64,000 nucleotides of DNA from Armatimonadota bacterium (GCA_029781035.1 JAKOXK010000030.1:1-64000); one strand, 5' to 3'; positions 11,367-53,850 are shown, counted from the first letter of the stretch. The notes: generated by a model from the sequence alone, not told the origin. Numbers and translations are program-made.

Positions 11367-12228
11367 CCGCAGACCTTTTTCGGACCAACTTGACCGTGGT
11401 CACCCCTGCCTTGGTTGCTGTCTCGGAGACAACAAAGGTGTCGCCGTGCTCGTCGACCTCGATGGGCAAGCGAGCAGCACTGTGGGCAAAGAGCCGTTCA
11501 GCCGCCTGGCGCATTAGGGAAGTCACGAGCACTTCTTCGTCCGGCTCTTGCAGGTTGGTGAGCATCTCCGGTCTCCCGACTTTGCGAAGGCCCAGGGTCT
11601 GACACTCGAAGCCTTGGCCCTGACGGCGCCAGACGACACGGACTTGGAGGTCGAAGCGCTCGGCATCGTTGTTCCGAGTCAGGGCTTGGCCGAGCTCTTC
11701 GGGCGTGTAGAAGACCTCGCTGACGGTGTCGAAGATGAGCGTCCCCCGCAGGAGGCGGCACATGGCGGCGGCCAGGTGAGTCATGAACTGCAGGTGACGG
11801 TGGTCGGGCAACGGGACATGGCTGACGAACCGAAGCTTGGCGAATGTCGTGCTCTCAGCAAGGGCCTGCAGGGCTTCTGCACTCGGGACGGCGTCGGAAT
11901 CGAACAAATCGGGACGGAACGCTTGGGGGTTCTTCTCGCGCTTGGCTAGGGCGATGTGCAGCCTTATGTCCGTGAAAAGGGCGCCTTCACGCTGTGTGAT
12001 CGCCGCTTTGTGCGGGCGGTTGTGGGGGTTCTTGGCGATCATGTAATCCATGATCGCTTGCGTCTGAGGGAGGCGACTGGCCGTAGAGTACACCCAGAAC
12101 TCGGTGAGAGACAGGTAGCCGGCTTGACGTCTTCCGTTGAGATAGCGCCAAGCGAGAACGCCCATGAAAAGGGTGACGAACCCGCCAAGGACGATCCAGC
12201 CGACTATGGCCCAAACCCCGAGAGCCAC
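11350..12228 (-). CDS. Hypothetical membrane-anchored protein
   Basis: GTG at 12228 gives VALGVWAIVGWIVLGGFVTLFMGVLAW TM segment; overlaps the end of the upstream small ORF by 25 nt. Confidence 0.65.
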   Translation of the reverse strand: MALGVWAIVGWIVLGGFVTLFMGVLAWRYLNGRRQAGYLSLTEFWVYSTASRLPQTQAIMDYMIAKNPHNRPHKAAITQREGALFTDIRLHIALAKREKNPQAFRPDLFDSDAVPSAEALQALAESTTFAKLRFVSHVPLPDHRHLQFMTHLAAAMCRLLRGTLIFDTVSEVFYTPEELGQALTRNNDAERFDLQVRVVWRRQGQGFECQTLGLRKVGRPEMLTNLQEPDEEVLVTSLMRQAAERLFAHSAARLPIEVDEHGDTFVVSETATKAGVTTVKLVRKRSAAKSDS

Positions 12229-12461
12229 TTGTCCGCAAGCTTTCGTTCCTCGTCGTTCAGCAAAGCGTGGCAGATTTTGCACAGCGCAGCTTCGTTCACT
12301 TGAGGATTCCGACACAGTAGACAGCAGTCGCGTCGGCGCGCGTCATGCACCAGGGCCTGCTGGGTAAGTGCGAACGTGAGTTGGTCTCGAGCGATGCCAG
12401 TGGCGTTGACGCGTCTCATCAATGAAGCTGCCTGCCTGATTGTGCCATATACGTCCGACAA
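12204..12461 (-). CDS. Small CxxC/CxxC zinc-finger-like protein
   Basis: 85-aa ORF with CCLLC...CKIC pairs; translationally overlapping with the 11350-12228 gene. Confidence 0.5.
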   Translation of the reverse strand: MSDVYGTIRQAASLMRRVNATGIARDQLTFALTQQALVHDARRRDCCLLCRNPQVNEAALCKICHALLNDEERKLADKWLSGFGP

Positions 12462-12698
12462 AATGGAGGCCCTTGATTGCCACTACACTGCGTGCTTGGA
12501 TCTAGAGGACGACTCGTTAGGAGGGAGTGCCAACCTGACAGCCGACAGTCTGGGCCAGCCCGAAGCATGACCAAAAGACAATCTCCGCACTTGCGGAAAC
12601 CATTGAGTAACATCACAAACTTGTCCCCTTACAGACTAAACAAGTAAGAGGACTTCAGTCCTGACTATACAAAAGCAGTCGTACACTACAGATCAAGC

Positions 12699-13277
12699 AT
12701 GAAGCGGAGTCACGGTGACAGGGCGGATAATGGGCCGTCCCAAGACGAGATTCAATGCAAATACGGGTTCCTCAGCTCCACAGCAGGCCTCATCTGCCTA
12801 CCAGTAGCCTCGTTTATGATCTTTGCTTACGCATCCCACTCTCTCGCCGAGGCACTGCCTCAGAATCGAGTCCGATTGAGCAGCCACATCTTTAGTCCCG
12901 CGCTTGGAAGCCACATTCTCAGACCATTGTACCGGACACGAGCCCCAAGATATGTGTTTGTCTACCCTTCCTGCGATTCGTGCTCTTTACGTCGTCCCAG
13001 CGATCACTGTCTGCGCTCCCTCTCGCGGAATCCAGGAGTGACCCTAGTCATACCAGACCGAGATGCCGAACAAGACTTCACGAGAACCGTGGGCCAAAGC
13101 GTGCGCGCCACGGTTATCTCCGCCCAAAGGGCAACCCGCCTATGCAATATATTGGGCGACGCTTCCCTCCTCGCAAGGATAGATCAGAACGGCGATCTCT
13201 GCCAAGCTTGGACATCAAAGGAGGATGTAGAAAGGCAGTGCGAACTTCTCGTCGCACAAAATCCGGCTTTACAGTGA
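12699..13277 (+). CDS. Thioredoxin-fold-like protein with CxxC motif and N-terminal TM
   Basis: FLSSTAGLICLPVASFMIFAYASHSLA TM; YVFVYPSCDSCSLRRPSDHCL resembles a beta-strand followed by a CxxC redox motif. Confidence 0.6.
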   Translation: MKRSHGDRADNGPSQDEIQCKYGFLSSTAGLICLPVASFMIFAYASHSLAEALPQNRVRLSSHIFSPALGSHILRPLYRTRAPRYVFVYPSCDSCSLRRPSDHCLRSLSRNPGVTLVIPDRDAEQDFTRTVGQSVRATVISAQRATRLCNILGDASLLARIDQNGDLCQAWTSKEDVERQCELLVAQNPALQ

Positions 13278-13804
13278 TCGAGTTCTTGGTCTCCATTTCG
13301 ATCATTGTCATTATAGCTGCGATCCTGACACCGACGTTCTTATCGGCCAAGAGGTTCGCGAATGAATCGTCGACAAAGACGAGGTTGCACGAATTCCATT
13401 TAGCGCTGATGATGTACCGTCAGGATTGGGACGAAACGGTGTCGTACGGGCCTGTGGATCAAATGGGCCTGCCGGACGCCTATAACCTCCTTCTGACAAA
13501 GCTGTGGCTTCCACAAGGCATGTGGAAGAGCCCATGTGGTGATCACCCAGGAAGGCCCATCCTTCAAATCAACTACGATTATTTTCCTGGGGACGGTGGT
13601 GCGCACTGGACGGATCATGTCGGTATTTACCAAGACAACATGATCCTTATGTGGGACATTAATTGCAACGACCCGTCTCTTGACCTCTACAATAGTTTTG
13701 AGTCCCATCTGGCGATAGGGGTTCTTCTAGGAGGAAACATCGCGGTGCATCGAAAGCCGGGTCGCTACGACGAGGCTTCATGGTGGGCTGACCCAGTTTT
13801 CTGA
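13238..13804 (+). CDS. Divergent type IV pseudopilin-like protein
   Basis: GTG start with upstream GGAGG; VRTSRRTKSGFTVIEFLVSISIIVIIAAILTPTFLSAKRFANESSTKTRL prepilin signal; overlaps the upstream gene by 40 nt. Confidence 0.75.
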   Translation: MRTSRRTKSGFTVIEFLVSISIIVIIAAILTPTFLSAKRFANESSTKTRLHEFHLALMMYRQDWDETVSYGPVDQMGLPDAYNLLLTKLWLPQGMWKSPCGDHPGRPILQINYDYFPGDGGAHWTDHVGIYQDNMILMWDINCNDPSLDLYNSFESHLAIGVLLGGNIAVHRKPGRYDEASWWADPVF

Positions 13805-13852
13805 AGCCTTCTTTGTGACGAGAAGACTATGTCGAAAGAGTCGAGGACAACA

Positions 13853-14098
13853 ATGAACAAAAAGAAGACGACGCTGTTGCGGCTATTTGCAGTAGCTGCG
13901 GTCTTAGCTGGATCACGAGGGCAGGTGTCTGCGGTCGACACAATCTGCGTAAGTTGTGGGCCACTTCAGGCTTGCCTGCGGTGGGGTGCTGCAATTGCTC
14001 AAAGGCAGTGGTGCGGCGCCACCGATCATGATCTGCCCCAAGCGTGCACCGATTACTACAAGCAGCGGTTTGCATGTTTGGAGGGTGGACTAGGCTGA
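13853..14098 (+). CDS. Small secreted Cys-rich peptide
   Basis: MNKKKTTLLRLFAVAAVLAGSRGQVSA signal-peptide-like, then CVSC...C...C...C...C (six Cys in ~45 aa). Confidence 0.5.
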   Translation: MNKKKTTLLRLFAVAAVLAGSRGQVSAVDTICVSCGPLQACLRWGAAIAQRQWCGATDHDLPQACTDYYKQRFACLEGGLG

Positions 14099-14138
14099 AA
14101 GGTGACGGGCGATTACAAGTTAGGATTCACTTGTACAA

Positions 14139-14795
14139 ATGACTACTGTTATTAGTGTTTGGCGACGGCATCGTCTGATCATTGTAATCTTCGCTGTAGC
14201 GGCGGCACTCCTGGTGGCGGTTTGGCGAGTGGTCTCTCGACCATCACTAGAGTCTACGGGCCGGCGGGCACTGGATTGCTTGGCAGCTGGAGACGCTGCA
14301 TGTCTGTACAATCTGACAACAGCTGACGAGAGAGCGGCGTACGCGCTCTCGCCCGATAAGCTGGATCGTCTGCTGAAAGAATATGTTTTGCCTACGTCCA
14401 GGCCAGTTGAAAGGAGTGGTGTGACCTTTGACGGGCTTGCGAATTCTGCGTCGTTGATTTGTAGGGAAGAGTGGCTGGGTAAGAGCGGTAAGCGACAGGG
14501 GGTGGGTGTCTTTGTGGCGAAGACGGACGAGGGCATCAAATGTCCGTACTTGGTCGGTGGTCTGCTGTTGGCTACGGCCGTCTATGAGAGAAGTGAGCCG
14601 ACATCGGGTGTGAAGGCTATGGACAAGCTCCTGGCTTGGCGGGACGCGGCAGTGAGGGACAAGTCGAAATTGGAGGGACTGGGTGTTGATGGGATTTACA
14701 GAAGCTCCGATGAGGGGCTTATTAGGTGGGATGATTGGATTGCGAACTGCAATAGCCGCATCGAGGGTCTCCGTAGTAAGGTCAGTTCGAAGTAA
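14139..14795 (+). CDS. Hypothetical membrane-anchored extracytoplasmic protein
   Basis: N-terminal TM RHRLIIVIFAVAAALLVAVWRV followed by soluble 190-aa domain. Confidence 0.65.
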   Translation: MTTVISVWRRHRLIIVIFAVAAALLVAVWRVVSRPSLESTGRRALDCLAAGDAACLYNLTTADERAAYALSPDKLDRLLKEYVLPTSRPVERSGVTFDGLANSASLICREEWLGKSGKRQGVGVFVAKTDEGIKCPYLVGGLLLATAVYERSEPTSGVKAMDKLLAWRDAAVRDKSKLEGLGVDGIYRSSDEGLIRWDDWIANCNSRIEGLRSKVSSK

Positions 14796-14949
14796 TTGGG
14801 AAGTTGGGGGATGATGCGTTCAGTCGAGGTACGTTGGAAATCAGGTGCCGTGGATTTGCTTTAACCAATGGGTGAAGGACCCTATTAAGGTTAGGGTTTA
14901 GCGTTGGCACGGCCTCGACGGTCTGGGGCGAGGGTAACCTCGGTCGTCC

Positions 14950-15726
14950 ATGACGATCGCGACGTTCAATGTGAATTCAGTGCGCGCACGGCTGCCAGTC
15001 CTCACCGAATGGCTGAAGTCAGTAGAGCCGGACGTGGTAGCGCTTCAGGAGACCAAGGTTGAGGATGACAAGTTTCCGAGGGAGGAACTGCAAGCCTGTG
15101 GTTACCAACTCGCTGTCCACGGGCAGCAGAAGTACAACGGCGTCGCCCTGCTCTCGCGGCGACCGATCGAAGACGTCGCGATGGGCTTTGGCGACCCCGA
15201 GTTTCCCGAGGATTGCCGGATCATCCGGGGGCGCATCGGAGGTGTGCTCGTCATCAACACCTACGTTCCAAACGGGTCTTCTGTGGGCAGCGAGAAGTAC
15301 GCCTACAAGCTGCGATGGTTTGAGCGCTTCGGACGTCTGGTGACGGATCTGGCCCGTCCAGACGACAAGGTGGTCTGGCTGGGGGACATGAACGTGGCTC
15401 CGACGGACGACGACGTCTTCGAACCGGAGAACAAGGAGCGGTCGGTGTGCTTCACGGCCGAAGAGAAGGCTGCACTCGAGGCGGTGAAATCGTGGGGTTG
15501 GACGGACGCGTTCCGCCTGTTCACTCAGGGCTCCGGGCACTATTCATATTGGGAGTTTGTCATCCCCAACGGCTTCAAGCGGAACCTTGGTTGGCGGATC
15601 GACCATATCTACGCTTCGCCTGGTCTTGTGGGTTCGTGCAGGGCTTGCGTGATCGACAAAGAGCCCCGCAGCTGGGAGCGCCCCAGCGACCACACGCCGG
15701 TCTTGGCTGAGTTCGCGGTCAGTTGA
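14950..15726 (+). CDS. xthA: Exodeoxyribonuclease III
   Basis: MTIATFNVNSVRARLPVLTEWLKSVEPDVVALQETKVEDDKFP, WLGDMNVAPTDDDVF, GWRIDHIYAS, SDHTPVLAEF. Confidence 0.95.
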   Translation: MTIATFNVNSVRARLPVLTEWLKSVEPDVVALQETKVEDDKFPREELQACGYQLAVHGQQKYNGVALLSRRPIEDVAMGFGDPEFPEDCRIIRGRIGGVLVINTYVPNGSSVGSEKYAYKLRWFERFGRLVTDLARPDDKVVWLGDMNVAPTDDDVFEPENKERSVCFTAEEKAALEAVKSWGWTDAFRLFTQGSGHYSYWEFVIPNGFKRNLGWRIDHIYASPGLVGSCRACVIDKEPRSWERPSDHTPVLAEFAVS

Positions 15727-43862: not shown

Positions 43863-44129
43863 TCAGCTCTTCGCATTGGACAGTGCTTTGGCCAAGCGGC
43901 TCTTTCGTCTGGCCGCCTGGTTCTTGTGGATCACGCCCTTTTGCGCCGCTTTGTCGATCGCTTTGATCGCCGTGGTGGCGGCTGTCACGGTGGCCTTTGC
44001 ATCGCCGCTTTCGCCGGCTTTCTTGGCCTTCTTGACGTAAGTCTTGATGGCCGATTTGATGGCCGTGTTCTTGGCGTGAGCTTTGGTGCTTCGCCGGATG
44101 TCCTTCTTGGACGACTTCAGGTTCGCCAT
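43863..44129 (-). CDS. rpsT: 30S ribosomal protein S20
   Basis: MANLKSSKKDIRRSTKAHAKNTAIKSAIKTYVKKAKKAG...KGVIHKNQAARRKSRLAKALS. Confidence 0.97.
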   Translation of the reverse strand: MANLKSSKKDIRRSTKAHAKNTAIKSAIKTYVKKAKKAGESGDAKATVTAATTAIKAIDKAAQKGVIHKNQAARRKSRLAKALSNAKS

Positions 44130-44213: not shown

Positions 44214-46055
44214 TCAGGGCTTCTTGATGAACTTCTTCTTGGTCTTGTCGAAGCCCAGTTCCACTTTCTTGTGGTCGTAGTGCCAGACGGGCGACCCCGA
44301 CCGCTGGTAGAAGCAAACGTAACTGGAAAGGAGCGATGCGAGCAGCCTCCTGGAAGTGCGTCGGACGACGTTGACTTCCCAGAGGATGGTCAAAAAGTCG
44401 GCACCTTTGGGCCAGTGAGTCATCACCTCGCGCAAGACGTCGAACGTAGACATTTCGTCGGCACGGCTGACGATCTCGCGCAGTTCCTCCATTCTCTGGC
44501 TGCTGATGTATACGACCGGGTCAGTCTGCTCCAGCCAAGTGAATTCGAAGACGTTCGGTCTGGACGTCTTGGTCAAGCTGAACACGGCGCCGGACTCCAC
44601 GCTCTGGTCGAGCCACCAGTCGAACAGGCCGAACAGGAGGCGGGTCTTGGTGTTCATCCAGACTTGGAGGTCTCTTCCGTCACTGTTGCTCCAAATGAGC
44701 TCCTGAACCCCAGGCTGAACGTCGAACCAGCCTGTAGGGAACTGGGAAAGTGGGAAAGTGCCCAGTTCGCGGTGGACCGGCTTGAGCACCAACCGGACTG
44801 TTTCCGGCATGTTCTTCGGCGGCGGGAGGATGTCCTCGTCGTTCACGTCCATCGCCAGCGGGTGGATGACCAGCTTGCGAAGCGAACTTGACAGGCCGTC
44901 GTCAGTCAATTCGACGTCCACTGGGTCGCCATCTTCCTGCAGGAAGGGAGTCTGCACGAACTCGAACGGCTCTGGAAGGATATCGATGTAGTCCGGCGCC
45001 GTTTCCGGCCTGCGGAAGCGGTCGCCGCCGACCCACCAAACACGCGAGTCCGACTTCAGGGTGTTCATGACGTTCTCAAGATCGTCTGGGAACGTCTTTA
45101 CCGTGGGCGTGACCTCGAAGAGCGACTCCAAAAGCGATGTGGCCGTGATGGTCTGCTCCGACTTGAGGATTCGGGAGACGGCTTCCTCAATGTCAGTGAC
45201 CTTGAATTCGAGAGGCGCGGCGTCTTCGACCTCAATCTGAGGCGTCACCTTGTCAGCCAGCTTCACAGCGGTGCTGATCCACTTCTTGGCATCCGCTTCC
45301 GGGTGGAGGGTTCCATCCGAGGCGTATACGAATCCGGGAACGCTGAGCAGCTCCGCATTGAACGAGCGCCAGTCGTAAAGCAGGGCTGATCGGGGATCCT
45401 GGGGGCTCAGGGCTAGCCATGCCGCGGCACCAAGGGCTTTGACTTTGACGGGAGCTATCTTCTCGAGGGCCAGAAGGATGGCGTCAGTCTGGAACCAGTC
45501 GAAGTCGCCCAGTGCGGCTTGCACTTTTTCAACTTCTGGCATCGTGACCTGGTTGACTTCAAACGCCCGGTCGATCGATTCGTCGGTCGCCGCGAACACC
45601 GTCGTTGAGACAGCGACGTGGTCGTCGAGCGTCAGGAACATCGTCCTGTCGTGGGTCAAGAACCTGCGGAGAGAAAACTCCACCTCTTCTTGAGGCCTGG
45701 AGAAGATCCTGCTGAGTTCAGCGACAACGAGATCGAGAGGCACGGGGCCACCAAACCGGTCGATCATGAGCCGTGCCGCTTCGTGGATCGAACGGCCCGC
45801 GCCAGCGAGGCGCGAAGCGGGAACCCACCGGCGTTCGGCATACGCGAACTTGTCGGGGTTCGAAGCCAAGAGGGATCTGATGGCGGCGAGCCCAAGTCCC
45901 TCAGGATTCAACTGGTCGGCGAGTTCGCTCGGCTTGACGACTTCAAAGAGTTCCGTCAACTTTTCGAGGATCAATCGGTCGGCAAAATCCCTGGCTAGGG
46001 TTTCTTCGGGCTTCAGGTCGTATGTCTTGGCCAAAGTCAAGGCTCCTACGGTCAA
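44214..46055 (-). CDS. Large protein of unknown function
   Basis: 613-aa intact ORF; repeated helical segments suggest tandem winged-helix-like domains but no family recognised. Confidence 0.8.
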   Translation of the reverse strand: MTVGALTLAKTYDLKPEETLARDFADRLILEKLTELFEVVKPSELADQLNPEGLGLAAIRSLLASNPDKFAYAERRWVPASRLAGAGRSIHEAARLMIDRFGGPVPLDLVVAELSRIFSRPQEEVEFSLRRFLTHDRTMFLTLDDHVAVSTTVFAATDESIDRAFEVNQVTMPEVEKVQAALGDFDWFQTDAILLALEKIAPVKVKALGAAAWLALSPQDPRSALLYDWRSFNAELLSVPGFVYASDGTLHPEADAKKWISTAVKLADKVTPQIEVEDAAPLEFKVTDIEEAVSRILKSEQTITATSLLESLFEVTPTVKTFPDDLENVMNTLKSDSRVWWVGGDRFRRPETAPDYIDILPEPFEFVQTPFLQEDGDPVDVELTDDGLSSSLRKLVIHPLAMDVNDEDILPPPKNMPETVRLVLKPVHRELGTFPLSQFPTGWFDVQPGVQELIWSNSDGRDLQVWMNTKTRLLFGLFDWWLDQSVESGAVFSLTKTSRPNVFEFTWLEQTDPVVYISSQRMEELREIVSRADEMSTFDVLREVMTHWPKGADFLTILWEVNVVRRTSRRLLASLLSSYVCFYQRSGSPVWHYDHKKVELGFDKTKKKFIKKP

Positions 46056-46219: not shown

Positions 46220-47107
46220 ATGAAGACACACACGAGCCATCACCCTCCCGAGGCCCAAGAGCTGCTCAGGCGAGCGGCCGAGCTTGGGCCCGGCCACCGG
46301 GGCGTACGAAAGGACGCTGGAGCCGCTAGTCGGAAGCATCTTGCCGCGAAACTCGCCTCTGCCGGCATCGAGCCTCCGCCATTCCTCGGTACCAGCCAGA
46401 CTTGGATCGAACGGGGAGCGAAGTTGTTCGAGGCAGGCGAATACCCCGACAAGGGCCTGAGCGTGACATCGAGCGACCTTGTCCGGCTTCAAGAGTCGTT
46501 CGATCTGCCGGTGCCGATCCTCATCGAGCACGCCCATTCGCCCCTTCAACTCGGTTACCTCACCGACGTCAGGGCTCAAGGATCCGAGCTGTTCGGAACT
46601 GTCGCCCTCACAAAAGAGGCTAACGACCTCCTCGAAGCGTCTGGAGCCAGATCTCTATCCATTGGATTGGAGAGCGACCTCTCTGCCATACAGGAGTTGA
46701 GCCTCGTCGCGAACCCCCGGATCGCCTCGGCCAAGCTGTTCCACGGCGAGGTACTCGCGCCCCCGACCGACTTGCAGGAACGCTGCCAAAGGCTTGAAGC
46801 CGAGCTTCACGACCGAGAATCGGAGGCGGCACTGACCTCGATGGTGGACCAAGGCCAACTTCTGCCGGCTCAAGTGCCCTTCGCCAAGGCCCTTTTGGGC
46901 GTTCCTGGCGTGGTGTCTTTTGACGGCGCGAGCGTCCCTGTCCGCCAATTGGCGATGTCGTTGCTCCAAGCTGGCCGGCCGCATGGGCTATTGGCCGAAC
47001 ACGCCCCTGGCGGCAGGGCCCCGGCCGACCTTGCGCCGGACGAGAGGGCTTTCTACGACCGCTACTTCTCTGGCCTGAGCCTTGAGGAGATTGCAAAGAA
47101 CCGTTGA
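46220..47107 (+). CDS. Phage capsid protease/scaffold-like protein (Mu gpI-like)
   Basis: ILIEHAHSPLQLGYLTDVRAQGSELFGTVALTKEANDLLEASGARSLSIGLESDLSAIQELSLVANPRIASAKLF resembles Mu-like prophage I proteins; sits directly before decoration and capsid genes. Confidence 0.7.
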   Translation: MKTHTSHHPPEAQELLRRAAELGPGHRGVRKDAGAASRKHLAAKLASAGIEPPPFLGTSQTWIERGAKLFEAGEYPDKGLSVTSSDLVRLQESFDLPVPILIEHAHSPLQLGYLTDVRAQGSELFGTVALTKEANDLLEASGARSLSIGLESDLSAIQELSLVANPRIASAKLFHGEVLAPPTDLQERCQRLEAELHDRESEAALTSMVDQGQLLPAQVPFAKALLGVPGVVSFDGASVPVRQLAMSLLQAGRPHGLLAEHAPGGRAPADLAPDERAFYDRYFSGLSLEEIAKNR

Positions 47108-47167
47108 CGACCAGACGAGCCGGATCGGTCATCCCATCCCGGCCCATTCCCCTAACCCAGCAAAGAG

Positions 47168-47605
47168 ATGTCTTTATCCAAACCATACGAAACGTACGAA
47201 CGCCCCGGCCTGGTTGTGAGCTACAAGCTCAGCAACGTCAAGGTCTATAAGGGCGCTAATGTCGGAGTCAACTTGTCCGGCTATCTCGTCCCCATGTCCC
47301 ACGGCACCACTGGCCTGCGCTACGTCGGCGTCGCCAACGACACCGTCGACAACTCCGGCGGAAGTGCGGGAGACAAGACTGTCAACGTCACCAAGACCGG
47401 ATCCTTTGTCTTCAAGGCGTCCGCAGCCTATACGCCGGTTCAGGCAGACCTCAGCAAGGAAGTCTATGGCCTGACTGACTGGGAGGTGCAAACGAGCACT
47501 AGCGGGCTCACGAACCAGTACAAGATCGGCACGATCGTGAACCTCGAAACAACTTCAACCGGGCAGACGGGAGTCCGCGTCCGGATCGACAATTACTCCG
47601 TGTAA
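47168..47605 (+). CDS. Capsid decoration-like protein (DUF2190-like)
   Basis: Small beta-rich protein VKVYKGANVGVNLSGYLVP...LRYVGVANDTVDNSGGSAGDKTVNVTKTGSFVF, position between protease and capsid. Confidence 0.65.
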   Translation: MSLSKPYETYERPGLVVSYKLSNVKVYKGANVGVNLSGYLVPMSHGTTGLRYVGVANDTVDNSGGSAGDKTVNVTKTGSFVFKASAAYTPVQADLSKEVYGLTDWEVQTSTSGLTNQYKIGTIVNLETTSTGQTGVRVRIDNYSV

Positions 47606-47620
47606 AGAAGGGAAGACCAC

Positions 47621-48562
47621 ATGCCATTAACCAAGGGAGACATTCCTGACCTCTTGCTGCCCGGACTCAAGACTGAGTTCGAAGCGGCGTATCGAGCCCA
47701 AATCGACGACAGCATTGCCGAGCAGATCGCTACCGTCGTCAGCACGACCATGCCCGTACAGAAGTACGCCTGGTTGGGTGCGACACCACCGATGCGGGAG
47801 TTCGTCGATGAACGACGGCCATCCGGCATGACCGAGTACGCGGTCTCGATCGAAGACAAGACGTTTGAGTCCACGATCGCTGTGGACCGCAAGGCGATCG
47901 AGGACGATCAGCTGGACCTCATACGGCTCCGGGTCCGCGACCTCGCGAGCCGGGTGACCCAGCACCGGCACCAGATCGTCGTCCAAGCCCTGTTGGGCGG
48001 TGGCTCGAGCACTGGCTACGACGGTGTCAGCTTCTTCAACGACACTCACCCTGGCTATGGTACGGCAACGTACTCGAACACGACGACCAGCGTCCTCTCC
48101 GCGACCAGCCTGGCGACGGCCGTGTCCACGATGATGCAACTTCCCGACGACACTGGGACGCCTCTCGGTGTGGTCCCCGACACTCTCGTCGTGGGGCCAG
48201 ACAGCATGTGGAACGCGATCGAACTGGTAGAGAGCCCGGTCGTGGTCTATAAGGGTACCGGCACGGTCGGCACCTCGCCTACCGACTACGTCAACTCGTT
48301 CCGAGGAAGGCTTCGGCTCATCGTCTCGCCCTACATCACGGGCCCGCAGGCGGATGCCTGGTTTCTGCTCGACACCAAGCGTCCGATCAAGGGAGTGATC
48401 CTCCAGCAGAGAAGCGACGTTCCTGTCGAGTTCACGGCGCTCGAGAGCCAGAGTGGCTCGGAGTCGGCCTTCTTGCGGGATCGCTACTTCTACGGCGTGC
48501 GCGCTCGTTACAACGTCGGTTACGGACTCTGGCAGGCGGCCTATGGTGGGAAACTTAGCTGA
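47621..48562 (+). CDS. Mu gpT-like major capsid protein (HK97 fold expected)
   Basis: LKTEFEAAYRAQ, FSLDTHP-like 'VSFFNDTHPGYG', PDTLVVGPDSMWNAIELVES, DAWFLLDTKRPIKGVILQQRSDVP typical of gpT proteins. Confidence 0.88.
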   Translation: MPLTKGDIPDLLLPGLKTEFEAAYRAQIDDSIAEQIATVVSTTMPVQKYAWLGATPPMREFVDERRPSGMTEYAVSIEDKTFESTIAVDRKAIEDDQLDLIRLRVRDLASRVTQHRHQIVVQALLGGGSSTGYDGVSFFNDTHPGYGTATYSNTTTSVLSATSLATAVSTMMQLPDDTGTPLGVVPDTLVVGPDSMWNAIELVESPVVVYKGTGTVGTSPTDYVNSFRGRLRLIVSPYITGPQADAWFLLDTKRPIKGVILQQRSDVPVEFTALESQSGSESAFLRDRYFYGVRARYNVGYGLWQAAYGGKLS

Positions 48563-48788
48563 CCTCGCCTTGTTGCTCAGTCTCGGCGGAACGCTGGGAG
48601 CGCTCGCCGGGATCTACGCCGCAGGAAAGCGCTTCGCCGACCACCTGAACGACTTGGCGACGACCGTCGAAGCGGTGTTGAAAGACCCGCGTCAAGCCGA
48701 CCTGTCCACCGTGGTCGCAAAGGCTAGGACCGTCGCGGCCGATGCCCGGAGCTTGCTTGGCATGATCAAGCAAGTCGTCCGGGCGTAG
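48543..48788 (+). CDS. Small membrane protein in phage head module
   Basis: ATG overlaps capsid stop; LADLALLLSLGGTLGALAGIYAAG TM then amphipathic helix. Confidence 0.6.
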   Translation: MVGNLADLALLLSLGGTLGALAGIYAAGKRFADHLNDLATTVEAVLKDPRQADLSTVVAKARTVAADARSLLGMIKQVVRA

Positions 48789-48871
48789 ACCGCCCAGGGG
48801 CGCACGGGCCAGCCGCCACGGCGAGCCCCAGCGCCTCGCTCTCGTCCACCGAGTTCCTCTTCACCCTCTCC

Positions 48872-49135
48872 ATGTCTCCGCACGAACTAATTCCGACCCT
48901 GGCCGGGTTCCTTGCCGCGGCCCTCGCCGTTCTCCGCCTCACTGTCAGTCAGTCCAAGGCCTTTACTGAACGTCTCTTGGCATTCTTCGAACATTCGCTC
49001 ACCCGCCAGGACGAGTCTATCGACTGCCTAAGCGCCGCCGTCACCGAGCTCAACCAAGGTGTCCGAGAGAACACGTTGCTCGTCCGCCAGGTCGCCGAAT
49101 GGCTCCAAGTCAGCACGCCGGTGGGGAGAGCCTGA
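48872..49135 (+). CDS. Small membrane-anchored coiled-coil protein in phage head module
   Basis: LIPTLAGFLAAALAVLRLTVS TM; helical heptad-like tail; ends one base before next ATG. Confidence 0.6.
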   Translation: MSPHELIPTLAGFLAAALAVLRLTVSQSKAFTERLLAFFEHSLTRQDESIDCLSAAVTELNQGVRENTLLVRQVAEWLQVSTPVGRA

Positions 49136-49555
49136 ATGAGCCTGGTCGTCACGACCGCCAAGGTCAAAGAAAAGGCGGGGCTCGCGACGTCTGACTACGA
49201 CACCTTGGTCGACAACTTGATTGCTGACTGGGTGCCCGCATTGGAGTTTGGGCTGGATCCGGCTGCCCTCGACGACACGGACAACACCGGGTTGCAGGCG
49301 ACCCTCAACCTCGGGGCCACCGAAGTCGTTGCCGGAGAGTTGCTGGCCCAGCTTGCGCGCGAGCCAGGCGGATCGGAGGTCATGTTCTTCGGCTGGCTCG
49401 AGGTTCGGCCCGCCTTTACTGACCTGGCAGACCCGTTTGGACTGAAGTCTCAGGGTTTCGCCCGGCTCGCTCCGTTTCAACGCTCAGAAGACAGTTTGCA
49501 GGCGTCTCCCGGTGTCCTCATGGGCGGTGTCCGCACCGAGGAATGTGCGACATGA
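49136..49555 (+). CDS. Phage head-tail adaptor/connector-like protein
   Basis: All-alpha N-terminus VTTAKVKEKAGLATSDYDTLVDNLIADWVPALEFGLD typical of gp6-like connectors; gene position. Confidence 0.6.
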   Translation: MSLVVTTAKVKEKAGLATSDYDTLVDNLIADWVPALEFGLDPAALDDTDNTGLQATLNLGATEVVAGELLAQLAREPGGSEVMFFGWLEVRPAFTDLADPFGLKSQGFARLAPFQRSEDSLQASPGVLMGGVRTEECAT

Positions 49556-49854
49556 CAGCTGCGCAAAGGCGGGTCAAGAGCCTCGTCGACAGGTACGGCG
49601 AGTCTTTCACGGTCGGCGCGACGACAGGCACAGGAGTGTTCACCAACGTGACAACGGGCAACGCCCACGCGTTCCTGACGACAAGCGAGATTGATGCGGC
49701 CGCCTTGCCGCTGTGGGTCTGCCTTGTCGCCCATGACGACGCGACGGCGGTCGGGGACACCGTCAGTTGGAACTCTCGCTCACTGACGGTCAAGAAGGTC
49801 GCCGAGGCCCGGTTCCTAACGGCTCTGACCGCGAAAATGCTGATCATGGACTGA
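49552..49854 (+). CDS. Phage head-closure/stopper-like protein
   Basis: Small beta-barrel-like protein, GDTVSWNSRSLTVKKVAEARF; ATGA overlap with the adaptor gene. Confidence 0.55.
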   Translation: MTAAQRRVKSLVDRYGESFTVGATTGTGVFTNVTTGNAHAFLTTSEIDAAALPLWVCLVAHDDATAVGDTVSWNSRSLTVKKVAEARFLTALTAKMLIMD

Positions 49855-50015: not shown

Positions 50016-50048
50016 GGGGCCCTTTGAGAAAGGGTCCCAATTTTTTTT
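50016..50048 (+). terminator. Strong rho-independent terminator closing the phage head module
   Basis: ggggcccttt-gag-aaagggtccc followed by aattttttttgc. Confidence 0.85.
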
Positions 50049-52344: not shown

Positions 52345-53850
52345 ATGAAAAAGATCCTCGTCATCGGCAGCGGGCCGATCATCATCGGGCAGGCGGCCGA
52401 GTTCGACTACGCCGGTTCGCAGGCCTGCAAGTCTCTCCGCGAAGAGGGCTACGAAGTCGTCTTGATCAACTCGAATCCAGCGACGATCATGACGGACGAA
52501 GAAACGGCCGATGCTGTCTACATCGAGCCGCTGACCCCCGCCTTCTGCGAGCGGGTCATTGCTCGCGAGCGGCCCGACGGACTCTTGCCGACGTTGGGCG
52601 GCCAGACCGGACTCAACCTTGCATCCCAGTTGGCCGACCTCGGCATTTTGGAGAAGTACGGCGTGAAGTTGCTCGGCACCCAGCTCGACGCGATCAAGAA
52701 GGCCGAGGACCGCGAGTTGTTCCGCTCCCTCATGAGGCAGATCAAAGAGCCGGTTCCTGAGAGCTGGATCGTCGAGAGTGACGCCGACCTCGAGGCCATC
52801 TTGGACGTCGTCCCCTACCCCTGCATCATTCGTCCCGCCTACACCCTGGGCGGCACTGGTGGCGGCATCGCGAACAACCGCGAAGAGCTTTGGGAGACGG
52901 GCCGCAAGGGGCTGAAGCTCTCCATGCGCAGCCAGCTCATGGTTGAGCGTTCACTCCTTGGATGGAAGGAGGTCGAGTACGAGGTGATGCGCGACGGCAA
53001 GGGCAACTGCATCACGGTCTGCAACATGGAGAACCTCGACCCGATGGGTGTGCACACCGGCGACTCCATCGTGGTCGCGCCGAGCCAGACGTTGAGCGAC
53101 ATCGAGTACCACATGCTGCGGACAGCGTCGCTCAAGATCATCCAAGCGCTGGGAATCGAAGGGGGCTGTAACGTCCAACTGGCCGTCAACCCCGATAGCT
53201 TCGACTACTACGTCATCGAGGTCAATCCGCGCGTTTCCCGGTCGTCAGCCCTGGCGAGCAAAGCGACGGGGTATCCCATCGCGCGAGTCGCGGCCAAGAT
53301 CGCGGTGGGCAAGACTCTCGATGAGATCGAGAACGCGGTCACGAAGACGACGAAGGCCTGCTTCGAGCCAGCGTTGGACTACTGCGTCGTGAAGATTCCA
53401 CGATGGCCGTTTGACAAGTTCACGACAGGCGACCGGTTCCTCTCGACGCAGATGAAAGCGACAGGAGAAGTCATGGCTATCGACCGGAGCTTCGAAGCCG
53501 CCTTGATGAAGGCTGTCCGCGGACTGGAGGTGAAGGCAAAGGACCTCCGCCACCCCGCGATTGAGGCCCTGGATGACGAATCGCTTCGGTCAGCCTTGCG
53601 CCGACCGACCGACGAGCGGCTTTGGGTGCTGGCAGAAGCCCTGAGGCGAGGATGGTCTCATACCGAGGTCCACCGCCTGAGCCGGGTGGACAAGTGGTTC
53701 CTAGAGAAGATCTCACACCTGGTCGTAGAAGGCTCATTCGAGTCGACTCCTGGTCGCACCGTCTACAAAATGGTGGACACGTGCGCAGGAGAGTTCGAGT
53801 CGCATACGCCCTATTTTTATTCGACACAAGGTCAGTCGCACGACGCCTGA
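52345..53850 (+). CDS. carB: Carbamoyl-phosphate synthase large subunit, N-terminal half only (carboxyphosphate and oligomerisation domains)
   Basis: [99 protein letters not shown]; ends at [25 protein letters not shown]. Confidence 0.95.

Follow-up and report, generated by a model that had tools for sequence, protein, structure and literature searches.

The seven genes at 46220-49854 of the window, the 64,000-nucleotide stretch of DNA that was analysed, probably form the capsid locus of an element of Armatimonadota that is domesticated and resembles a gene transfer agent (GTA); on the best reading, this GTA-like element is ancient and previously undescribed. By sequence, the genes encode a head of the phage Mu gpT type, and other loci of the genome encode a matching portal and large terminase (TerL). 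The unlinked capsid, portal and TerL genes are kept or lost as a set, and their sequences suggest that inheritance follows the host in a largely vertical manner. The host, as judged from its named relatives, is a fimbriimonad, a member of the little-studied phylum Armatimonadota.

The capsid locus and its proteins

All seven ORFs of the packed block described in a first-pass annotation are present and intact on the + strand (Table 1). ORF4 starts inside ORF3, the major capsid protein (MCP) gene, ORF6 directly after the stop of ORF5, and ORF7 inside ORF6; the reading frame of the protease ORF is open from 46124. The G+C content of the module (0.60-0.63) is that of its surroundings. A pattern scan found 4 terminator-like sites, where 3.7 are expected by chance; the hairpin behind the module, where a terminator had been claimed, exceeds the other sites in stem length (10 pairs) and in the length of its T run. 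The flanks proved to be cellular context, as annotated: in addition to rpsT and a 613-aa protein, they hold genes for a GNAT protein and ketol-acid reductoisomerase, and carB at 52345. The 613-aa protein has no Pfam match; three related genomes also have it close to the module. A PADLOC search returned no defence-system match. Elsewhere in the window, the region 12000-15000 has a lower G+C content (0.53-0.55), with a strong positive GC skew at 14001-15000 and no Rfam match; a protein encoded there (12980-13804) is, by reading, prepilin-like.

Table 1 Features of the capsid locus and its immediate context, in window coordinates
Feature	Position	Strand	Remarks
rpsT	43863-44129	-	flank, context only
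613-aa protein	44214-46055	-	flank, cellular context, outside module
Head maturation protease, C-terminal scaffold-like part	46220-47107	+	295 aa from ATG 46220
Head decoration protein	47168-47605	+	145 aa, phrog_1731
Major capsid protein (MCP), Mu gpT type	47621-48562	+	313 aa, PF10124
ORF4, small membrane protein, single N-terminal hydrophobic segment	48543-48788	+	81 aa
ORF5, small membrane / coiled-coil protein	48872-49135	+	87 aa
Head-tail adaptor-like protein	49136-49555	+	139 aa, fold comparison
Head completion stopper	49543-49854	+	103 aa, fold comparison
Intrinsic terminator-like hairpin, then T8	50016-50038	+	pattern scan

The MCP matches Pfam Mu-like_gpT (PF10124, E=6e-57) and a PHROG major head protein (E=4e-62), and its family profile retrieves PDB entry 8rkc ('Bacteriophage Mu GpT domain-containing protein', E=3e-65), which we take to be the capsid protein of Casadabanvirus JBD30. 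The decoration protein matches the virion structural protein family phrog_1731 (E=7e-22). For the protease the HMM matches are weak (phrog_976 head maturation protease, E=5e-4; Mu-like_Pro, E=0.009), yet His104 and Ser147 (alignment numbering, from 46220) are invariant over 16 relatives, which is the pattern expected of a His/Ser prohead protease, and homologues occur in the cassettes of most families. ORF4 (hydropathy 1.78), which overlaps the MCP stop, has homologues among related Fimbriimonadaceae; ORF5 (hydropathy 1.88 at residue 7) is conserved in the loci of f1, the family of the window genome, and f5, and is possibly related to lysis.

HMM searches (Pfam, PHROG) gave no match for the adaptor and the stopper, which were assigned by AF2 structure prediction followed by Foldseek. 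The stopper model (pLDDT 93) matched the lambda neck protein 8k37_M with probability 1.00 and E=0.004, as well as the T1 stopper and SPP1 gp16, so that its top matches are stoppers of the lambda FII / SPP1 gp16 type. The adaptor, whose family alignment has 30 members, gave a model (pLDDT 86) with its best matches in the Bxb1, Douge and E217 necks and HK97 gp6, all at E=0.3 or weaker; most of its top-ranked matches are phage necks. The predicted folds thus support the identity of the stopper and, more weakly, that of the adaptor. This structural check had been proposed in the first-pass annotation, whose gene assignments (protease/scaffold, decoration, gpT capsid, two small membrane proteins, adaptor, stopper) hold, that of the adaptor more weakly.

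Portal and terminase genes at separate loci

The absence of terminase and portal, as originally annotated, applies to the window locus and not to the genome (G000; 3.42 Mb, 98 contigs). The suggested search of its remaining contigs located a Mu-type portal gene on C77 (82137-83213) and a TerL gene on C94 (47582-48844), each on its own, which together with the capsid genes makes three separate loci. In a genome of the same genus (G003) the portal and terminase genes are adjacent, and the flanks of the pair match the G000 terminase flank on one side and the G000 portal flank on the other. This indicates that a rearrangement within the genus split the portal from the terminase. Among other relatives, the portal, terminase and capsid genes lie side by side in G018 and about 20 kb apart in G013 and G034. 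In two closed genomes the distance is about 0.75 Mb (G010) and about 1.0 Mb (G020), and in G041 all three are separate. An M15-type peptidase gene near the terminase of G020 (L055:11866-12603) is either a linked lysis gene or there by chance.

Co-retention, inheritance and selection

The set of relatives comprised 61 genomes (the window genome and 60 others), 51 of them of high quality. A strong-scoring MCP is present in 43 of the 61, nearly always in single copy, and the decoration gene also in 43. Among 256 Armatimonadota genomes searched, 112 have an MCP (about 107 strong matches and about five weak, phage-like ones), mostly in single copy; the portal and TerL are likewise mostly single-copy. 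The closest MCP match outside the phylum, among genome contigs, has 34% identity.

With either the MCP or the decoration gene taken as the capsid marker, capsid genes occur in 44 of the 61 genomes. The portal is found in all 44, and is absent from 15 of the 17 genomes without capsid genes. The Fisher p values for the 61 genomes, which are inflated by relatedness, are 2e-12 for capsid and portal and 3e-9 for capsid and TerL. Capsid genes, portal and TerL are all present in 36 of the 51 high-quality genomes and all missing from 11, and several genera have lost every gene of the set. An apparent loss of the MCP in G001, of the same genus as the window genome, was rejected, since the decoration gene is present and a contig break is likely.

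For 29 genomes, the trees of the MCP and of rpoB share 91% of their quartets (Mantel p=1e-4), and in both trees a single branch separates each multi-member family from all other genomes; within f1 the quartet agreement is 77%. Genes to which a role in the head or in packaging is assigned have pairwise dN/dS values of 0.02-0.24, with 0.37 for ORF4 and 0.21-0.55 for the variable protein described below; for the pair G000 and G003, dS is near saturation and dN/dS is a rough value. In the MCP tree, f1 and f19 have, by inspection only, shorter tip branches than phages do. Apart from the 81-aa ORF4, each module gene (six of the seven) recurs as an intact ORF in relatives outside the nearest kin of the genus, far more often than expected by chance. 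The comparison of conservation, synteny and dN/dS, which had been put forward as a check, bears out the earlier argument against random decay: the genes are conserved in relatives, with intact ORFs and under purifying selection.

Contiguous cassettes in other families

In families f31-f35 the genes form a cassette, although some are missing from some members, in the order small terminase-like, TerL, portal, protease, decoration, MCP, variable protein, adaptor and stopper. The stopper is followed by a coiled-coil membrane protein, to which several cassettes add another membrane protein and then an endolysin of varying type (M15 in G198, Amidase_3 in G214, M23 in G201). From their position, the membrane proteins may act in lysis. 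Cellular genes are also found inside cassettes (an aquaporin in G214, a GGDEF protein in G201). The capsid operon of one relative is interrupted between the decoration and MCP genes by about 8 kb of inserted DNA (L107:1894-10000), whose genes, by reading, are those of a type III restriction-modification system and a Fic-type protein.

The variable protein, between the MCP and the adaptor, ranges from 127 to 1005 aa across families. It shows 37% identity where the neighbouring MCP is 97% identical, with a dN/dS of 0.55, and this fast evolution suggests a surface-exposed spike or adhesin. Examples of this candidate head spike gene are found at L073:11068-11559, L070:4564-5622 and L076:5914-8931. 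Three loci of families f13 and f11 (L068, L074 and L075, in G100, G083 and G105) hold a divergent version of the cassette, with larger packaging-type genes and protease, long MCP branches and no recognisable tail genes, and perhaps represent a separate domestication.

Many neighbours of the module genes are housekeeping genes, and none of those scanned is an integrase or replication gene. No integrase, repressor or tail gene was recognised at the window locus or at related loci, in line with the absence of tail and integrase genes claimed for the former.

Tail searches and viral relatives

No tail genes could be recognised downstream of any cassette examined. We also searched whole genomes with the Pfam profiles PF10145, PF04984 and PF20155, which cover the contractile sheath and two families of tape measure, and with a profile of the large tail protein from the phage contigs L171 and L174 (see below). 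No match was conserved across genomes, with a profile set that is non-exhaustive for genes as fast-evolving as those of tails. PF10145 matched only in G000 (contig C47) and in G008, where the match is next to a second portal, of prophage type. PF04984 matched G020 alone, and PF20155 was above the cut-off only in G029 and G041; the L171/L174 profile, which lacks a positive control, had zero matches in the genomes. Contig C47 (L285, 12.85 kb) has phage tail-type genes, including a 935-aa tape-measure frame, and no homologue of the module; it is an unplaced phage or a contaminant of the bin.

A search of IMG/VR with a single MCP matched nothing, whereas with the MCP alignment it retrieved contigs of tailed phages (L168, L171, L172 and L174), whose MCPs branch among the chromosomal ones. 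The chromosomal MCPs are therefore not a single clade that excludes phages. L171 and L174 (L174 carries a tape measure, E=3e-40) have MCPs 61-66% identical to those of phylum members, and the closest catalogued phage has about 35% capsid identity. The capsid, decoration and protease sequences of L171 and L174 are among the closest outside the cassettes, but they have tail genes and lack an adaptor or stopper of the cassette type. These adaptor and stopper types recur, out of 95 viral or foreign loci, only in L169 and L170, which look like fragments of cassettes, and weakly in L182. Types that are common to the cassettes and nearly absent from these 95 loci point to a shared history of the set. 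L182 (IMG/VR, 8.9 kb) encodes, in a different order, decoration, MCP, adaptor-like, TerL, portal and stopper-like proteins, followed on the other strand by genes that do not look phage-derived, and is another head-only cassette. One domestication with later escape or exchange, or two or more domestications, both fit the data; as judged from the sequences there may have been more than one, with independent or replaced versions in f3, f10, f11 and f13.

Discussion

The genomic features by which GTAs can be recognised are found in this set. The MCP, decoration protein, protease, portal, TerL and stopper are caudoviricete-derived, by HMM or fold; inheritance is vertical (91% of MCP and rpoB quartets), though at depth the MCPs may be related to those of phages; the genes are dispersed, with no integration, replication or excision genes among the neighbours sampled; and they are under purifying selection and evolve more slowly than those of phages (dN/dS, and tip branches by inspection). 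As the set is known here from its genes, we call it GTA-like and not a GTA. If so, the dispersed genes would be switched on in part of the population, and the protease and scaffold would shape a prohead. The terminase, freed from its own replicon, would load heads with any available host DNA, the adaptor and stopper would seal the portal, and the membrane proteins, with the endolysin where one is linked, would release the particles by lysis. Since no conserved tail was found, delivery would depend on a tail from unrecognised genes or on another device, for example the variable protein as a head spike. The lambda stopper is the protein on which the tail docks, so its retention here suggests that the heads may still have a docking partner. 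Tails are present in the best characterised GTAs, which counts against the GTA-like reading. A narrower proposal, a tail-less, phylum-wide ancient GTA whose stoppered, DNA-filled heads are released by lysis and deliver by a head-borne spike or the recipient's uptake machinery, is one we hold only tentatively and consider rather unlikely.

The first-pass annotation had offered a domesticated capsid, a split GTA locus, a nanocompartment or a satellite relic. The former two are favoured by the conservation of the distant portal and terminase along with the capsid genes, and the latter two are not. A domesticated satellite, which fills its own heads, with adaptor and stopper, and takes the tails of co-resident phages, is improbable, though less so than the other alternatives. 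Its gene content (head, packaging, adaptor and stopper, no tail) would resemble that reported for capsid-forming PICIs (cfPICIs), and tailed phages with related capsids do exist (L171, L174), but their adaptor and stopper types differ from those of the cassettes. Moreover, neither an integrase nor a satellite regulation or replication module occurs among the neighbours scanned, and the genes are single-copy, unlinked, under purifying selection and largely vertically inherited. Particles aimed mainly at killing competitors have a precedent in PBSX, which packages host DNA, reportedly without injecting it, and acts as a tailocin (PMC12946183), and the variable gene could encode an adhesin. Killing of this kind needs a tail, of which none was found, and would make the kept packaging motor hard to explain, so we regard it as very unlikely.

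An encapsulin-like compartment, an empty shell for cargo, would account for finding small membrane proteins together with a phage capsid protein of HK97-fold type in a bacterial operon. Encapsulins have a cargo and neither portal nor terminase, whereas here both are conserved, and lost, together with the capsid. The module has also kept its adaptor, its stopper and the maturation protease, and the capsid gene has no conserved cargo enzyme as a neighbour; we give this reading hardly any weight. The same applies to a decaying prophage at the window locus. Although the phage gene set is partial and isolated, and several genera lack all of the genes, the ORFs are intact and conserved over many families with dN/dS far below 1, and their presence is coordinated with that of the unlinked portal and terminase. 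A prophage would join lytic, lysogeny and tail modules at its attachment site, but no tail, integrase or repressor gene was recognised at the loci. A prophage relic was rejected on these grounds. An assembly artefact was rejected as well: assembly error, pseudogenes and absence from all close relatives, which the first-pass annotation had named as evidence against its proposal, were not observed.

The GTA-like set looks, from its genes, like an undescribed system of DNA exchange between cells. If true, capsid-mediated gene exchange would reach further than now known, into many families of one phylum. With its single-gene loci kept or lost as a set, such a system would offer a clean test of why hosts retain such machines, and raise the question of how a DNA-loaded head with no known tail delivers its cargo. 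The GTAs with known genes are few, mostly from Alphaproteobacteria, plus those of Brachyspira, Bacillus (PBSX) and Faecalibacterium (PMC12946183). In the open-access literature, with most subscription papers outside the search, we found no report of GTA genes in Armatimonadota. For Fimbriimonadales, a hot-spring survey (PMC8597652) lists prophages that are incomplete, with 'portal; head; capsid', perhaps the same genes as the module.

Compared with known systems, the set shares its capsid family and Mu-type portal family with Casadabanvirus JBD30 and other phages with a Mu gpT head, which are complete tailed phages. PMC11389934 describes cfPICIs as having their own capsids and stealing only tails. 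They resemble the Armatimonadota set in having head and packaging genes of their own and no tail genes, but they are mobile and phage-dependent, whereas the set is single-copy and vertical, with no integrase or replication genes seen. FpGTA of Faecalibacterium, reportedly near-ubiquitous in its genus, forms particles without identifiable tails (PMC12946183). It likewise has a head and packaging operon apart from other loci, and differs, in a comparison by description only, in its second locus (baseplate, fibre, receptor-binding and lysis genes) and in that its particles have been shown. From RcGTA, BaGTA and BhGTA, which are gene transfer agents classed as viriforms (PMC9662315), the Armatimonadota set, known from genes alone, differs in its Mu gpT-type head, its Mu-type portal, the lack of a recognised tail, its occurrence in another phylum and its loci, which go down to single genes. 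It resembles them in its phage-derived head and packaging genes, the absence of visible self-mobility genes, vertical inheritance, dispersed loci and slow evolution, and in the lysis genes that are linked to it in some Armatimonadota families.
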